In this document: piece by piece, positions 18,774-24,822 of the stretch
Layout: each line of letters opens with the position of its first letter
Numbering within the stretch: position 1 is the stretch's first letter
Source: Gelidibacter mesophilus DSM 14095
Lineage (GTDB): Bacteria > Bacteroidota > Bacteroidia > Flavobacteriales > Flavobacteriaceae
Direction of reading: 5' to 3'
Assembly (NCBI RefSeq): GCF_000423005.1
Contig: NZ_AUHD01000001.1
Span: forward strand, 372,001-436,000
DNA length: 64,000 bases
Notes under the pieces: generated by a model
Database searches by the model: none
Told to the model about the DNA's origin: nothing
What the model saw: the letters and a program-made list of their open reading frames with translations, nothing else
Position numbers and translations under genes: made by a program

Positions 18774-19160
18774 ATGGGAAATAATAGCAGTAACACACTT
18801 ATTGGCATTTTAGCTGGTACAGCAATTGGCGCAACGTTAGGAATCTTATTTGCACCAGATAAAGGTGTGCATACAAGACAACGAATTTCAGATGAAGCTT
18901 TAGCGGCAAAGGATAGATTTGCTGAAGGAGCCATGGCTGCAAGAGATACTATTTCTGATAAGGCATCTCATTTAGCAGATAGAGCATCTCATTTAAGAGA
19001 TAGTTTTGTAGACTCTGTGCAAGCAAAGAAAATGACATTAGATGAAAAAGTAGAATATATTGTATCTGATGCAAGTCATAAAACTGAAGATGTAATTACT
19101 ACATTGGAAAATAAATTGGCTACTTTGAAAGAAAAAAACAAGAAACTACAAAAATCATAA
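18774..19160 (+). CDS. YtxH domain-containing protein
   Basis: 128 residues. The N-terminal glycine-rich membrane helix (LIGILAGTAIGATLGILFAP) followed by a DKG turn is the YtxH hallmark. The remainder is an Ala/Asp/Lys-rich coiled region with repeated units such as ASHLADRASHLRDS. YtxH proteins are induced in general stress in other bacteria, with unknown biochemistry. It begins a three-gene run with the next two frames (gaps of 9 and 3 bases). Confidence 0.85.
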   Translation: MGNNSSNTLIGILAGTAIGATLGILFAPDKGVHTRQRISDEALAAKDRFAEGAMAARDTISDKASHLADRASHLRDSFVDSVQAKKMTLDEKVEYIVSDASHKTEDVITTLENKLATLKEKNKKLQKS

Positions 19161-19169
19161 TTTTAAAAT

Positions 19170-19520
19170 ATGAACATTTTTGAATCTATAAATAATACCT
19201 CCAATAAAGCATCAGATATTGGTGAAAGATATATTGATAAATCTTACGAATATTTCAAATTAAAAGTCTTTCAGCAATTGTCCTACACCATTAGTATGGC
19301 AGGCAAAGCGCTTATAATTGGTGCTGTATTATTTATAGGTTTAATTTTATTGGCTATAGCTGGTGCTATTGCCATTGGTGAACTTCTACAAAGCTATGCT
19401 TTAGGTTATCTTATAGTGGGAGCACTATTTTTAATCATCGCTTTCATTATCTACAAGGTAAGATATCTAGTTGATGCCAGAATAATTAGTAAGTTACAAT
19501 CCAAATTCTTTAAATCATAA
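19170..19520 (+). CDS. Holin-superfamily-III-like small membrane protein
   Basis: 116 residues. An N-terminal amphipathic part is followed by two membrane helices (about 44-70 and 75-96) separated by ELLQSYALG, then a basic tail. The arrangement resembles the holin-X/phage-holin-family proteins often found beside YtxH in Bacteroidota. A lysis role is unlikely here; an envelope-stress role is inferred from the neighbours. Confidence 0.65.
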   Translation: MNIFESINNTSNKASDIGERYIDKSYEYFKLKVFQQLSYTISMAGKALIIGAVLFIGLILLAIAGAIAIGELLQSYALGYLIVGALFLIIAFIIYKVRYLVDARIISKLQSKFFKS

Positions 19521-19523
19521 CTC

Positions 19524-19727
19524 ATGAAAACCTATAAATCGTTTGACGAAATCGACTATGATTTAAATCGGCTGAGCCTTGAAAAACAAATTGCTTGGGA
19601 AGAGATTAAAGGTCTAAAGAATGATTTTCAGGAAGATATGAAACCTCTTAACTGGGTGAACACTGGATTGAAGTTTGCTGGAAAATATGGTGTTCTTGTA
19701 CTGCTTAAAAAGTTGATTAGAAGATAA
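19524..19727 (+). CDS. Small protein, DUF6327-like
   Basis: 67 residues starting 3 bases after the holin-like gene. It begins MKTYKSFDEIDYDLNRLSLE, has a charged helical middle, and ends in a short hydrophobic segment plus LIRR. I recall similar small proteins next to YtxH/holin genes in flavobacteria, but no function is known. Confidence 0.6.
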   Translation: MKTYKSFDEIDYDLNRLSLEKQIAWEEIKGLKNDFQEDMKPLNWVNTGLKFAGKYGVLVLLKKLIRR

Positions 19728-19741
19728 TTTTATTATCTTTT

Positions 19742-20779
19742 TTATTCAGTCTCTTCCACATTCACCATCACAACCTGCTTTCTAAATTCGTGAGGAGTCA
19801 TTTCATACTTCTCCTTGAATATTTTCGAAAAATAACTTCTACTTGTAAATCCTATGGTATATACAATTTGAGAAATGTTCAGATCGGTGGTGTTCATTAA
19901 ATCTCGCGCAGCTTCTAAGCGCACGTGCCTTATATATTCGGTGACTGTTCTTGCGTATAGAAACTTGAATCCCTCCTGTAATTTAGCTTGAGAAAGACCA
20001 GAATCTTTAGATATTTGATCTAAATTATAATTTAATGAGGGATCATCCAATATTTTCTTTGCATGACGCCTAATAATCTTTAGCTCATCTTTTAAGAGAG
20101 TGCTTGGGATGACATCGTTATTTTGGTATTTATCATGTCGAGCAATGTGCATGGAGAGTAAATGATATACTTCCCCTTCAATATGCAGAACACGTGTCAT
20201 TCCTTCCGTTTTTAAATCGCGTAAAGTTTTTACGTAGTCCTCCATTTTTAAATGAATAGGACCATAATAGGCAAATTCCTTTTCATCTTTATCATCTACA
20301 AAAACCCGATAAAGATTTTCATTAAGTTCAGAAAGTTGGTTATTACGTTTTTTAAGAAACTCCTTCCGGACAATTCGAATGTTGTTGAGAATGATATGAA
20401 TGTCCTTGGGTAAAAACGAGTAGAGTTTTAAGCCTGTTTTGGAAACGATGATGGACGAATGAAATTGTTCAACGGTTTGAAACTGCGTTTCATTCTCGAA
20501 TCTGGTTCTGTAGCACCCTTGAGAACAATACGTAAAATGTATGGGATTAGAGCTTCCGTTATCGCTAACGAACAAAACGTCTTCAAAAAAAATAGCATCA
20601 ATCTCGAGCAAGCTTACTCCCCAATCAAATGAAATACATCTCACACACCCTTTCGCGGTATCATTATCAAACGCTAAGGTGTATTCACCCCAACGTTCAG
20701 AAATCTCACCCCCAAAATAACTTTGCATTTGTTTAACTGCACCTTCGGTGGTCTCTGCACTTAGAATTACATTTATCAT
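19742..20779 (-). CDS. AraC-family transcriptional regulator
   Basis: 345 residues. The C-terminal double helix-turn-helix is clear (YNLDQISKDSGLSQAKLQEG, then NISQIVYTIGFTSRSYFSKI and FKEKYEMTPHEFRKQ). The N-terminal half is a beta-rich sensory-type domain with three cysteines (Cys41/44 in GCVRC and a later CSQGC). It is convergent with the YtxH operon and faces the DUF2383-like gene across a long gap, so it is a plausible regulator of the stress group; this is inferred from position only. Confidence 0.88.
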   Translation of the reverse strand: MINVILSAETTEGAVKQMQSYFGGEISERWGEYTLAFDNDTAKGCVRCISFDWGVSLLEIDAIFFEDVLFVSDNGSSNPIHFTYCSQGCYRTRFENETQFQTVEQFHSSIIVSKTGLKLYSFLPKDIHIILNNIRIVRKEFLKKRNNQLSELNENLYRVFVDDKDEKEFAYYGPIHLKMEDYVKTLRDLKTEGMTRVLHIEGEVYHLLSMHIARHDKYQNNDVIPSTLLKDELKIIRRHAKKILDDPSLNYNLDQISKDSGLSQAKLQEGFKFLYARTVTEYIRHVRLEAARDLMNTTDLNISQIVYTIGFTSRSYFSKIFKEKYEMTPHEFRKQVVMVNVEETE

Positions 20780-21388
20780 AACTTCTCAAAAATTAATAAA
20801 AGGTTGGTTCTTTAAATTTTAAAAATTTAGACAGGTAAAATGAAATGGGGTCAGGTACTTATTGTTAAACAAATATAAATAATGTTTAATCAAGTTCTAC
20901 ATCTGATCAATGTTCTTCACAAATTTATACTATTTCTGTCGTGTCAAAAGGTAAAATTGAATACAGTCAAACTTTTTTGGGATTAAGTACGTTCGCGAAT
21001 TCATATCTCATTAATTTTGAAATATACAAAGAGTTTCATACTCTTTACACTGGTTGGTTAGTTAGGAAGGACGACCTCAGCAACACTTCAAAAATGCTGA
21101 GGTTTTCTTTTGTTTTAAATTTAAGTTTTCTTGACCGTTTCAAATTTATTTTGCCAAGTGGGATACAGAGAATTTTAACTTTAATATCCAGATTGAAATC
21201 CTCATGCTTCAATGCTTTAACATATGGTTGGTTTTTACCTCACTTTTGAAAGTTAACTTTGCGTAATTATGATGCGATCATAACTAATTTTTTAAAGCCG
21301 TTGATAAGGGTTAATTATATTTTGTAATGGATTAATCCCTAATTTATTCGTTTGGTAGTTTTATGACAACCATAAAAACTTAAATACT
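20780..21388. other. 609-bp intergenic region with a terminator but no convincing gene
   Basis: A GTG-started frame at 20941-21249 is open but has no domain, and a strong terminator-like hairpin lies inside it (21075-21116). The region must hold the upstream control of the AraC gene and of the DUF2383-like gene. It could also encode a small RNA ending at the hairpin. Confidence 0.5.
21075..21116 (+). terminator. Orphan intrinsic-type terminator
   Basis: CCTCAGCA pairs perfectly with TGCTGAGG around a 12-base loop, followed by TTTTCTTTTGTTTT. No plus-strand gene ends just upstream, so the transcript it ends is probably a non-coding or leader RNA. Confidence 0.6.
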
Positions 21389-21838
21389 ATGAGTGCTTAC
21401 ACAGATAGATTAGGAAATAAATTAAATGATTTGTTGGAAAAGAACTATGATGCAGAAGAAGGTTTTAAAAAAGCCTCAGAAAATTCTAAGCATGTAGGTC
21501 TTAAATCTTACTTTTCAGGAAAGGCGCAAGAACGTTATAATTTTGGACATGAATTAAAGTCGGAGTTAAAGAATTTAGGACAAGAGCCTGATAAAGGTGG
21601 CAGTGTTACAGGAGCAGCCCACCGTACTTGGATGGAAGTGAAATCATGGTTTTCTTCTGATGACGATGAGTCCATGTTGGAAGAAGCAATTAGAGGCGAG
21701 AAAGCCGCGGTAGAAGAATATAAAGATGTGTTGAGTGATACCGCACTTCCTGGTTCAACTAGACAGCTTTTGGAAACGCAAAAAAACACGATTGAGCACG
21801 GTCTGGTTAATATCAAAAGACTTGAAGATTTAAGTTGA
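21389..21838 (+). CDS. DUF2383/PA2169-type four-helix-bundle protein
   Basis: 149 residues, entirely helical. Recognised by LLEKNYDAEEGFKKASEN, the ferritin-like paired helices with Glu/His positions (YNFGHELKSEL, AIRGEKAAVEEYKDVL) and the central GAAHRTWMEVKSW. These proteins are common near stress genes in environmental bacteria; the function is unknown and metal binding is possible. It is a single gene with its own terminator. Confidence 0.83.
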   Translation: MSAYTDRLGNKLNDLLEKNYDAEEGFKKASENSKHVGLKSYFSGKAQERYNFGHELKSELKNLGQEPDKGGSVTGAAHRTWMEVKSWFSSDDDESMLEEAIRGEKAAVEEYKDVLSDTALPGSTRQLLETQKNTIEHGLVNIKRLEDLS

Positions 21839-21863
21839 TCAATGTAAAAACAGAAAAAGCACC

Positions 21864-21895
21864 AAAAAGACACTAATTTAAGTGTCTTTTTTTTT
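21864..21895 (+). terminator. Intrinsic terminator of the DUF2383-like gene
   Basis: AAAAAGACACT pairs with AGTGTCTTTTT around AATTTA and continues into a run of T. Confidence 0.85.
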
Positions 21896-22020
21896 GCTGA
21901 CCACAATAGTGTGTACTTTTTAGGATTCGCTATTTTGCATTTATTTGCGTTACCAATTGATGCATTCAAGTTAAAAAACACAAGTAAATATGATTTACTT
22001 ACATGTTAATAAATATTGCA

Positions 22021-22674
22021 ATGTTTTATAAAATATCCAATATAGCCAATCGGGAATCCATTGAGAAAAAGTTTCATGTCAACTTTGAGTTTCCTAACCT
22101 TTATAAGCCTCAAGGCGTAATTGATGGCTTAATGGAATCAACGATTTCTGTGATAACTATTTCTGATCCACATAAAGCAGTTTACGCCATCTGGGGGTTG
22201 TTACCAGAAAACTTTGAAGATAATTGGAGTGTTTTTCAGGATGTAGTAAACACTTTAAATGTTAAATTCGAGACGCTTCAAAACGACAATGGATTATACA
22301 TGGATATCCTTGAGAAAAGAAGATGCATTATTTTGTCTACCGGCTTTTTTACCACGTGGCTCACCAATGGTACTGTGGAACGCTGTCATGTACATTTGCC
22401 TGATTTTGAACCATTCGCTATAGCCGGTGTGTTCAATGAACTGAATGATGGTTTTATAACCTGCTCATTAGTAGTGACTCAAATCAATGAATCTTTTAAA
22501 GATGTTCCCAATATCTCAAATTTAAAGCCCCTTGTTTTAAATGATCATGAACTCAAACAATGGTTTGATACCTCAACATCTTTAGCTCAGTTGAAACAAT
22601 TGTGCGTAGAACATCGTTCGATGAAATTTTATTATGAGCCCTATGAAAGTGGACATTTTATCATTAAAACCTGA
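22021..22674 (+). CDS. SRAP/YedK-fold protein lacking catalytic residues (pseudoenzyme)
   Basis: 217 residues from ATG 22021, the start that aligns with Met1 of the family; ATG 22003 is also in frame. The body follows the SOS-response-associated peptidase (YedK/HMCES) pattern: VYAIWGLLPENF, NVKFETL, RRCIILSTGFF, PFAIAGVFNEL and LKPLVLNDHELKQWF. The catalytic Cys2 is Phe2, the Glu of the GxFEW segment is Thr111, and the His before the RPLVL-like stretch is Ser166; Asn80 remains. It should not form the Cys2 crosslink to abasic DNA. It may still bind DNA. Confidence 0.7.
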   Translation: MFYKISNIANRESIEKKFHVNFEFPNLYKPQGVIDGLMESTISVITISDPHKAVYAIWGLLPENFEDNWSVFQDVVNTLNVKFETLQNDNGLYMDILEKRRCIILSTGFFTTWLTNGTVERCHVHLPDFEPFAIAGVFNELNDGFITCSLVVTQINESFKDVPNISNLKPLVLNDHELKQWFDTSTSLAQLKQLCVEHRSMKFYYEPYESGHFIIKT

Positions 22675-22790
22675 ATATTTTGCTTCTTTAGATACCCATT
22701 CTTTATGAGTTAAATTCTGTTTTAATTGCGTTAAGCGCATGAATCCTTATTAATTACCTTTATCATACATTAACTTAAAAACTCAAAATT

Positions 22791-22952
22791 ATGTTACGTT
22801 GGACTATTATTTTTATAGTAATTGCAATTATCGCAGGTATTTTAGGATTTGGCGGTGTCGCTGGAGCTTCTGCTGGTATTGCTAAGATTTTCTTTTTTAT
22901 TTTTATAGTCCTTTTCATTTTATCTCTATTAAGAGGAGGATTAAAAAAATAA
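22791..22952 (+). CDS. DUF1328/YtjA-like 53-residue membrane protein
   Basis: Starts [20 protein letters not shown] and continues with the [13 protein letters not shown] turn and a second helix ending [10 protein letters not shown]. This two-helix hairpin with the Gly/Ala-rich turn is the UPF0391/DUF1328 signature. Function unknown; such genes are common in stress-gene neighbourhoods. It is below normal ORF length limits. Confidence 0.85.
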
Positions 22953-22987
22953 AAATGTACTTTTAACTTCAAACCAAATATAAAATT

Positions 22988-23155
22988 ATGAAAAAACTAA
23001 TGATGACTTTTATGGTCCTATTTTCTTTAGGAACTGTAATGACAACTTTTACAAGTTGTAGAGAAACGAATAAAAGCGGTGTTGAAAAAGCGGCTGATGA
23101 CGTAGGAGATGCAATTGATGACGTTGTGGATGATGTTGAAGACGCTGTCAACTAA
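22988..23155 (+). CDS. Small acidic lipoprotein, 55 residues
   Basis: Signal peptide with a lipobox at Cys24 (TFTSC). The mature part is about 32 residues, with DD/EA repeats (KAADDVGDAIDDVVDDVEDA) that would form one very acidic amphipathic helix. Size and layout recall entericidin-like peptides, but the charge is opposite to most. It starts 35 bases after the DUF1328-like gene and is followed by a strong terminator. Confidence 0.7.
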   Translation: MKKLMMTFMVLFSLGTVMTTFTSCRETNKSGVEKAADDVGDAIDDVVDDVEDAVN

Positions 23156-23185
23156 TAAATGTAAAGTTTGCATTTATATAATAAG

Positions 23186-23222
23186 AAAAAGAGGCCATTA
23201 TTTATAAATGGCCTCTTTTTTT
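23186..23222. terminator. Bidirectional terminator
   Basis: AAAAAGAGGCCATT pairs with AATGGCCTCTTTTT around ATTTATA. It ends the small-lipoprotein transcript and overlaps the last bases of the minus-strand gene that follows. Confidence 0.9.
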
Positions 23223-23616
23223 AGTGAATACTTTTACTATCCGGTTCAATATATTTGATAAAATCAGATGGCGATTCAAGTTGCACATATTTTTTGCCTA
23301 TAATAGCAATTGGTTTAGATAATACAATAGGATTCTTATCAAGGATTTTTAACCAATCGTCAGCATCTAAATCAACGCGTTTATCGTAATGCTGAGTGAA
23401 ATCTGGATGCTCCTTGTTGATCAGTCCTGAAACAGGAACTCCTAAGCCTTTAGCCAATTCTGTCCATTGGGTTCCTGTAACCGTAGTTTTGGATATGTCT
23501 ATCGTTAAAATTTTTCTTTCTGAAGCTAATACATATGCTTGTATTTGTTTACCTATAGAACTTTCAGAATGAAAATATAATTTTATTTCATTGTTATCTG
23601 TTGAAATCACGCCCAT
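23221..23616 (-). CDS. ArsC/Spx-fold protein without the catalytic cysteine
   Basis: 131 residues. The C-terminal part matches the ArsC family (GLGVPVSGLINKEHPDF, DDWLKILDKNPIVLSKPIAI, IGKKYVQL). The N-terminal active-site loop, where ArsC has its Cys, reads HSESSIGKQ, and there is no cysteine anywhere in the protein. Arsenate reduction and Spx-like redox sensing are therefore unlikely. I recall close relatives in other flavobacteria, so the loss is probably old and the protein has another role. Confidence 0.75.
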   Translation of the reverse strand: MGVISTDNNEIKLYFHSESSIGKQIQAYVLASERKILTIDISKTTVTGTQWTELAKGLGVPVSGLINKEHPDFTQHYDKRVDLDADDWLKILDKNPIVLSKPIAIIGKKYVQLESPSDFIKYIEPDSKSIH

Positions 23617-23810
23617 TCGAATTTAAAATTAAAATTAGTTTTGATTATTATGTCAATATGTCGCTAGTAGTTAGGGTATTATTGGAATTGACATCCGGTT
23701 CCCGCCAACTACTAAATATATAAAAAAAAGTTTAAAATTTGGTATTGTCTGAACCAATTGTTACATAATAACTTTTAATGATATTAATGGAAGTATTGCT
23801 GCAAAATTTC

Positions 23811-23818
23811 TATTTTTG
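23811..23818 (+). promoter_or_regulatory. Candidate -7 element of trxB
   Basis: TATTTTTG matches TANNTTTG 23 bases before the trxB ATG at 23842. The -33 partner is not clear. Confidence 0.4.
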
Positions 23819-23841
23819 TAAGTTCTAAACTTATTATAATT

Positions 23842-24822
23842 ATGTCAGATTCAATTGAAAGAGTAAAATGCCTGATTATAGGTTCAGGGCCAGCAGGTTA
23901 TACTGCAGCAATCTATGCGGCACGAGCTAATATGTATCCCGTACTTTACCAAGGAACACAGCCAGGAGGGCAATTGACAACTACCAATGATGTTGAAAAC
24001 TTTCCAGGATATCCCGATGGTATTACAGGCCCCGAAATGATGATAGAGTTACAAAAACAAGCCGAACGTTTTGGAACTGACGTAAGAGATGGTTGGATAT
24101 CTAAAGTTGATTTCTTGGGAGATGTGCATAAGGTATGGGTTCAAGATGATAAAGAAATTCACTGTGAGACTGTGATTATTTCTACAGGCGCAACAGCAAT
24201 GTATCTTGGATTACCTTCAGAACAAAAATATTTACAATTGGGTGGAGGTGTTTCCGCTTGTGCAGTTTGTGATGGATTTTTCTATAGAAATCAAGAAGTT
24301 GTGATCGTAGGCGCCGGAGATTCTGCGTGTGAAGAAGCTCATTACCTGTCCAAACTTTGTAAAAAAGTTACAATGTTAGTAAGACGTGATGAGTTTAGAG
24401 CCTCACAAATTATGCAGGCAAGAGTAAAGAATACTCCAAATATCGAAATATTGTATAATACCAATACTGATGAAGTTCTAGGTGATGGACAAGTAGTGAC
24501 TGGTGTCAGAGTCAAAAATAATATCACAGATGAGGTGCATGAAATACCAGCAACAGGATTTTTTGTGGCCATTGGACATAAACCAAATACCGATATTTTT
24601 AAAGGCTTCTTGGATTTAGATCCAACAGGTTATATTATCAATGTACCAGGGACTTCCAAAACAAATATAGATGGGGTATTTGTTTCTGGTGATGCGGCGG
24701 ACCATGTTTACAGGCAAGCTATTACAGCAGCAGGAACGGGTTGTATGGCGGCATTGGATGCTGAACGTTATTTAGCATCGATTGACTCGACATTTGAGGT
24801 TAATACTGCTACCAACTATTAA
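23842..24822 (+). CDS. trxB: Thioredoxin-disulfide reductase
   Basis: 326 residues. FAD motif IIGSGPAGYTAA near residue 12, redox pair Cys140-Ala-Val-Cys143, NADPH-binding GAGDSACEEA and the C-terminal FAD contact GDAADHVYRQA are all in place. It reduces thioredoxin with NADPH in the cytoplasm. Length is normal. A strong terminator follows. Confidence 0.96.
   Translation: MSDSIERVKCLIIGSGPAGYTAAIYAARANMYPVLYQGTQPGGQLTTTNDVENFPGYPDGITGPEMMIELQKQAERFGTDVRDGWISKVDFLGDVHKVWVQDDKEIHCETVIISTGATAMYLGLPSEQKYLQLGGGVSACAVCDGFFYRNQEVVIVGAGDSACEEAHYLSKLCKKVTMLVRRDEFRASQIMQARVKNTPNIEILYNTNTDEVLGDGQVVTGVRVKNNITDEVHEIPATGFFVAIGHKPNTDIFKGFLDLDPTGYIINVPGTSKTNIDGVFVSGDAADHVYRQAITAAGTGCMAALDAERYLASIDSTFEVNTATNY

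Follow-up and report, generated by a model that had tools for sequence, protein, structure and literature searches.

What can a protein of the SRAP type do once the residues of its abasic-site chemistry have been replaced? The question is raised by a gene of Gelidibacter mesophilus DSM 14095 that lies in the window analysed here, that is, the whole stretch of 64,000 nucleotides. We use the name SRAP* for the SRAP-fold protein of this window and for the branch to which it belongs. The following features, with positions counted along the window, are referred to throughout:

18774..19160, plus strand: YtxH-like stress protein (Pfam)
19170..19520, plus strand: Phage_holin_3_6-type membrane protein (Pfam)
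19524..19727, plus strand: small protein with a weak DUF6327 match, below the cut-off
19742..20779, minus strand: AraC-family regulator of 345 aa, with an AraC helix-turn-helix domain behind a barrel-like N-terminal domain; 79 of 81 SRAP* loci contain a member of its cluster
21389..21838, plus strand: DUF2383 / PA2169-type four-helix-bundle protein, directly 5' of SRAP*; 58 of 81 loci contain a member of its cluster
21942..21976, plus strand: conserved element TATTTGCGTTACCAATTGATGCATTCAAGTTAAAA, a putative operator/promoter whose TGCGTTA begins 75 bp before the SRAP* start
22021..22674, plus strand: SRAP* gene, 217 aa, a putative SRAP-fold pseudoenzyme with Phe2, Asn80, Thr111 and Pro163 at the catalytic columns
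22791..22952, plus strand: hydrophobic ORF of 53 aa downstream of SRAP*, which we take by its look to be a stress-type small membrane protein
23221..23616, minus strand: ArsC/Spx-like small protein (weak match, below the cut-off, and without a Pfam family at E<=0.001); 37 of 81 loci contain a member of its cluster

Fold and active-site residues of SRAP*

The preliminary description of this DNA had recognized an SRAP-type body with an intact fold, and both observations hold. In a profile search, residues 35-200 score 67.8 bits against Pfam SRAP PF02586 (cut-off 27.1), and the AlphaFold model, based on a 77-row alignment from which three loci with alternative start codons (L067, L084 and L111) were left out, reaches a mean pLDDT of 90.5 and a pTM of 0.88. 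A Foldseek search with this model returned 21 PDB chains at E<=0.001, SRAP proteins in every case, comprising HMCES, BT_1218, YedK and structural-genomics entries; the entries 1zn6, 2bdv and 2aeg are named as SRAP in the available part of PMC3765255. The top match was HMCES (6oov, 2.3e-14), and the match to BT_1218 (2f20) has a TM of 0.81. Membership in the SRAP superfamily is therefore evident at the level of both profile and fold, and the sole NCBIfam match of the protein, PqqD with 20.4 bits where the cut-off is 101, is taken as chance. SRAP* is acidic, with a pI of 5.2 for the window protein and a clade median of 5.6 versus a canonical median of 6.3, although the ranges overlap.

A misread start could in principle hide a Cys2, as the preliminary description had cautioned, and an alternative in-frame ATG does exist at 22003, six codons 5' of the SRAP* start. 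This explanation was rejected on three grounds: the conserved N-terminus of SRAP* starts at MFYK, a stop lies at most one codon ahead of the MFYK methionine in four relatives (L063, L074, L108 and L121), and the open frame 5' of the start contains no Cys in the window.

As had been proposed, Phe2, Asn80 and Thr111 align with the Cys2, Asn and Glu columns, the Glu being that of the GWFEW motif and the Asn being kept. The loss of the catalytic His was also correctly recognized, but its assignment to Ser166 was not, since the column falls three residues away on Pro163. All 23 flavobacterial canonical homologues carry a VHN..RMP motif with the His at this point; the length of the His loop differs between subgroups, its alignment is uncertain, and BT_1218 itself has no His in that column. 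Because residues 125-176 of the window protein contain no His at all, the loss stands whichever loop alignment is used.

The same losses run through the clade. They were counted in 80 rows (the window and 79 loci, with the broken copy L082 omitted here and from the tree) and in 23 canonical rows, which are 25 non-clade homologues minus the broken L001 and L022. Residue 2 is Cys in 2 of 80 clade rows versus 23 of 23 canonical rows, the catalytic Glu (YedK Glu105) is kept in 0 of 80 versus 23 of 23, the catalytic His (YedK His160) in 20 of 80 versus 23 of 23, and the conserved Asn (YedK Asn75) in 51 of 80 versus 23 of 23. Similarly, the 90 clade rows of the tree described below hold Cys in 3 cases, Asn in 57, Glu in none and His in 24, whereas all four residues are present in 27 of 27 canonical rows. 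Three members (L066, L073 and L133) keep Cys2, Asn and His, with Thr replacing Glu. In 77 of the 80 clade rows, the second residue is Phe, Tyr, Ile, Lys, Leu or Asn, and after any of these Met1 normally stays.

In YedK, according to the available part of PMC9436759, the reaction is carried by Cys2 and Glu105, His160 aids ring opening, and Asn75 is of little weight. Since the window protein has lost Cys2, Glu and His and keeps only the Asn, cross-linking of abasic sites by this protein is very improbable, judging from its sequence and by analogy with YedK.

Distribution and selection of the clade

A peptide-pattern scan of one genome per species matched 169 stretches; 82 of these contain the gene of a relative, and 80 were retained. 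By their record titles, the carriers are mostly Gelidibacter, Psychroserpens, Aquimarina, Winogradskyella, Flagellimonas, Kordia and Tenacibaculum, among others, genera that we take to belong mostly to Flavobacteriaceae; two metagenome-assembled genomes (L077 and L102) are named only to Bacteroidia. Another metagenomic contig, L069, is titled Algicola, a gammaproteobacterial name in NCBI, and carries SRAP*. Its pairing with Psychroserpens in the tree raises the suspicion of a misnamed bin, which is the probable explanation. In viral contigs, a scan based on a 15-row alignment gave 34 pattern matches and 0 relatives, and a viral origin was rejected.

To place the clade, we used a quick maximum-likelihood tree of 117 rows, two of them identical (L120 and L135), from which the four active-site columns had been removed and for which branch support is SH-aLRT only. 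One branch splits the 90 clade rows from the 27 canonical rows with an SH-aLRT of 100, so that the preliminary description's question of whether the change marks a conserved clade can be answered with a separate branch, mainly of Flavobacteriaceae. The three members that keep Cys2, Asn and His cluster together within this clade. From this grouping, Glu seems to have been lost before the clade diversified, and Cys2 would have been either lost repeatedly or regained.

Full-length profile scores from 397 genomes sampled within the family are bimodal, with a gap from 213.6 to 169.1 bits, and 48 genomes have an SRAP* match above 200 bits; this threshold and the 210 bits used for AraC below were chosen by eye at the score gaps. 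Five matches under the gap that were examined in full (L141, L142, L143, L145 and L146) are canonical. Both halves of the broken L082 copy (G001) and a truncated piece in G178 (L144) with the DGF motif of the clade also fall there, so the figure of 48 of 397 counts high-scoring copies and not every trace. Matches at E<=1e-40 were found in 3 of 345 genomes sampled from the class and in 10 of 345 sampled from the phylum, the window's genome included each time and all from the window's family. The sources of the species scan and of the 397 genomes overlap, and the two sets of counts should not be taken as independent.

When the 48 carrier genomes were searched with Pfam SRAP, 17 had a sole match, at the SRAP* position. 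SRAP* therefore needs no catalytic twin, and the idea that it generally relies on a catalytic SRAP elsewhere in its genome was rejected. The window's own genome has a second SRAP of canonical type (contig C4, L001 1338-2067), with the motifs MCYS..., GFFE and HNKKKRMP. It is spread over two overlapping frames and is either a broken gene or a sequencing slip.

The preliminary description had also suggested that the protein is kept under selection, and the results agree. The dN/dS of the SRAP* gene alone is 0.05-0.17 among the listed Gelidibacter pairs with finite dS, which is often near saturation, and two pairs involving the window have no finite dS. New residues have become nearly fixed in the clade: Glu39 (80 of 80 clade rows versus 0 of 23 canonical rows), Ile57 (80 versus 3), Trp69 (80 versus 2), Gln73 (80 versus 1), Asp143 (80 versus 6), Gly144 (80 versus 2), Phe145 (79 versus 0), Asn7 (78 versus 1) and Phe72 (77 versus 3). 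At the sequence level, the clade is under purifying selection. Chance or decay in a single genome is ruled out by the homologue scan, the clade-wide residue losses and the dN/dS values. SRAP* is nevertheless dispensable in places, as broken copies attest: L082 5983-6635 in Gelidibacter salicanalis IC162 is in two frames, L147 7443-8069 in genome G341 has an in-frame stop, and L144 1458-1811 in genome G178 was read as a late piece alone. In L058, another G. salicanalis record, the SRAP* frame is open.

The stress-gene island and its AraC regulators

The location within a stress-gene cluster, as first described, is supported: in the window, SRAP* comes after DUF2383 and close to the YtxH-like, holin-like, DUF6327-like and AraC-type genes. 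Neighborhoods were counted over the window and 80 loci, 81 in all. The AraC cluster is absent from L111 and L114, even under a looser search, and its members are short in L104. In 45 loci the nearest AraC gene is encoded upstream, on the other strand; in 34 it lies downstream, 33 times on the other strand. No called ORF separates it from SRAP* in 50 loci. Further recurrent clusters, identified by Pfam from one member each, are PLD-type, cardiolipin-synthase-like proteins (35 loci), MscS channels (24) and topoisomerase IB (16). Two more clusters, in 15 and 9 of the 81 loci, are by their look presumably hemerythrin-like and Dps-like, respectively. No SOS gene (LexA, ImuA/B or DinB) was seen among the seven window neighbors scanned, and the recurrent clusters elsewhere are only partly identified.

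The neighborhood as a whole, comprising window positions 18774-24822 and loci L053-L132, has the appearance of a recurrent flavobacterial stress island containing AraC, DUF2383, YtxH, holin-like, MscS, PLD-type, topoisomerase IB, hemerythrin-/Dps-like and ArsC/Spx-like genes. A search of the open-licence literature by gene names found no paper on such an island, which seems to be little described. In the window, positions 22988-23155 hold a small ORF that resembles a lipoprotein and has an acidic tail (DDVGDAIDDVVDDVEDAVN), and ORFs that resemble it by eye recur in other islands (cluster 25, 8 loci). In the Gelidibacter locus L059, four ORFs lie between the DUF2383 gene and SRAP*, and the order of the neighboring island is unchanged. 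Many Aquimarina loci (e.g. L067 4715-9419) have three different AraC-type paralogues around SRAP* in constant order, and a small protein with a weak ydhR-like match frequently separates SRAP* from the next AraC. At L100, L103, L111, L114 and L118, a same-strand PLD-type, cardiolipin-synthase-like gene begins on the last base of the SRAP* stop (TAATG), and this one-base overlap suggests a joint operon of the two genes there.

A profile of the AraC N-terminal domain scores at least 210 bits in 51 of the 397 family genomes, that is, in 34 of the 48 SRAP* genomes versus 17 of the 349 others (odds ratio 47, p 2e-25, kinship ignored). An AraC match lies within 15 kb on the same contig in 44 of the 48 SRAP* genomes when the weaker listed matches are included, and within 6 kb in 35; for G385, G206, G210 and G396 none is nearby among the AraC matches listed. 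SRAP* is thus seldom far from an AraC-type regulator, and the regulator does not need SRAP*, as 17 of the 51 genomes with a strong AraC match have none. A second SRAP* group (L125, L126 and L128-L132), found in Gelidibacter and a single Aquimarina, has Leu2 or Ile2, lacks Asn80 and adjoins a shorter AraC-type protein of 314-324 aa in six cases and 265 aa in one. In a midpoint-rooted FastTree, the six long proteins fall in a 30-row group with divergent SRAP*-adjacent AraC proteins of Aquimarina (local support 0.99), their immediate join having a local support of 0.53.

A conserved element of 30-35 bp stands about 75 bp ahead of the SRAP* gene in Gelidibacter and in the 16 Aquimarina-type loci scanned. 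Eight Gelidibacter genomes (L059 is excluded from this alignment) share a 35-bp block about 80 bp ahead of the start, in surrounding DNA that is poorly conserved, and a related element occurs at about the same distance in Subsaxibacter and Aquimarina. Of the 79 stretches of 250 bp taken from upstream of SRAP* (one locus, whose sequence there is too short, is omitted), 18 contain an exact TGCGTTA versus 0.93 expected after shuffling, a contrast that relatedness inflates; 15 of the 18 copies, in these three genera, lie 72-75 bp 5' of the start. A ten-site Aquimarina matrix detected a site in 16 of 16 Aquimarina-type loci scanned (ten training loci included; L078, L116, L119, L127 and L132 excluded), with scores of 20.4-44.8 and no second site above 15.4.

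Within the window, a matrix of eight sites, including the window's own, scores that site at 45 bits by construction and the next best at about 0. A pattern drawn by eye from the upstream regions of SRAP* and DUF2383 gave 0 matches in the window and missed the SRAP* site itself, and a second pattern gave 6 matches where 3.16 were expected (6 were reached in 7 of 100 shuffles), with an exact match at the SRAP* site alone. On these pattern and matrix searches of the window, a single operator common to the whole island was rejected, and the element looks specific to SRAP*. An AraC protein may bind it; against control by the island's AraC stands that the searches did not find the element at other promoters of the window or of the Aquimarina-type loci.

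Candidate roles and known systems

With about even confidence, we propose that SRAP* is a pseudoenzyme that persists because it binds a partner non-covalently in a stress response linked to AraC. SRAP* belongs to a separate flavobacterial SRAP branch that has lost residues of the abasic-site chemistry and is retained by selection. The bulky residue 2 would leave Met1 in place, and the N-terminus may then plug the old reaction pocket. Plugged in this way, the protein could act by non-covalent binding, being made from its own conserved promoter element within a stress-gene island that includes AraC-type regulators; it would be controlled by AraC and induced by stress. As its partner, a protein of the AraC circuit or a small ligand seems more likely than an abasic site to which it is covalently bound. 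A bolder version, which we hold only tentatively, is that in Flavobacteriaceae a suicide DNA-repair fold has become a dedicated protein for signaling, or an effector, within a general stress response under AraC control. It would bind a ligand or regulator through a remodeled pocket (Glu39, Gln73, Trp69 and the Asp-Gly-Phe loop), and the Gelidibacter/Aquimarina paralogue group, together with its shorter AraC-type neighbor, would be a duplicate of this two-part module.

The DNA-structure sensor and the decoy suggested in the preliminary description are conjectural roles. Alternatively, the SRAP cleft of SRAP* might still bind single-stranded or abasic DNA, with no cross-link formed, and so shield it under stress, which we regard as possible but rather unlikely. 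The retained SRAP fold is in keeping with such a cap, as are the topoisomerase IB (Pfam, 16 of 81 loci) and presumed Dps-like (by look, 9 of 81) genes of the islands. The charge pattern points both ways. Two conserved arginines of 1zn6 are flagged as likely DNA contacts in the available part of PMC3765255, and we infer that they correspond to positions 82 and 168. Position 82 is Lys or Arg in 8 of 80 clade rows versus 20 of 23 canonical rows, and position 168 is Arg in 3 of 80 versus 23 of 23. These losses argue mildly against plain DNA binding, as does the acidity of the protein, but a Lys or Arg at position 4 (71 of 80 versus 1 of 23) speaks for it, and position 100 is likewise basic in 73 of 80 clade rows.

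The remaining explanations would assign the protein either an activity or no function. New chemistry is improbable in our estimation: Glu39, Gln73, Asn7 and Asp143, polar residues that hardly vary within the clade and are uncommon in canonical rows, could together make up a new active site, or Glu39 and the amine of Met1 could act as a lyase on another substrate. In the available part of PMC9436759, YedK without the Cys2 thiol remains an AP lyase, but the C2A E105Q change lowers its lyase activity 25-fold, and Glu is absent from all 90 clade rows. A weak, slow abasic-site enzyme, at least in rows with Cys2 and His, seems less probable still. A slow reaction could continue in L066, L073 and L133, which keep Cys2, Asn and His and lack Glu only, and YedK E105A still reaches 50 percent after 1 h in the same part of that source. 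The window protein, however, lacks Cys2, Glu and His together. In 77 of 80 rows, moreover, residue 2 should prevent removal of the methionine. That SRAP* is merely a decaying duplicate without function is very improbable: the broken copies in Gelidibacter (L082) and in L147 and L144 are what decay would leave, but the selection result speaks against it, as do the columns invariant over 80 rows, the conserved promoter element and the island linkage.

Compared with canonical SRAP proteins (E. coli YedK, human HMCES and Bacteroides BT_1218; PF02586), SRAP* shares the fold and the core motifs W58-G59, P62, R101-C102, G108, A135-G136, P170 and W181, and in the window protein also Asn80. It differs in lacking Cys2, Glu and His, in having mostly lost the two basic positions and in its new invariant residues. 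The family-naming paper, in the available part of PMC3765255, describes Cys2 as absolutely conserved and Glu as nearly so (the Glu in a reply), makes no mention of an inactive SRAP clade in that part, and reports SOS genes (LexA, ImuA/B and DinB) as neighbors of SRAP genes, unlike the seven window neighbors scanned. A search of the open-licence literature likewise found no paper on inactive SRAP clades. The neighboring regulator, whose predicted model (pLDDT 85, pTM 0.66) combines a barrel-like N-terminal domain with an AraC helix-turn-helix domain, finds its best Foldseek matches in ToxT, Rns, CsvR and CuxR. It resembles ToxT, Rns and CuxR in these two domains; unlike them, it is flavobacterial and tied to stress islands, and the whole-chain TM is low (0.25-0.33).

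Retention of the SRAP fold under selection in a whole clade that has given up residues of the abasic-site chemistry suggests that the fold can be kept for something else. SRAP* also draws attention to a stress island, linked to AraC and little described, in a major family of marine bacteria. The clade would also offer natural, long-evolved "dead" versions of the fold for separating binding from chemistry. Although ImuB and ImuA, described as inactive DNA-repair paralogues in the available part of PMC3765255, have different folds and belong to SOS operons, of which none was seen at SRAP* among the seven neighbors scanned, SRAP* resembles them in keeping a catalytic fold whose chemistry has been lost.
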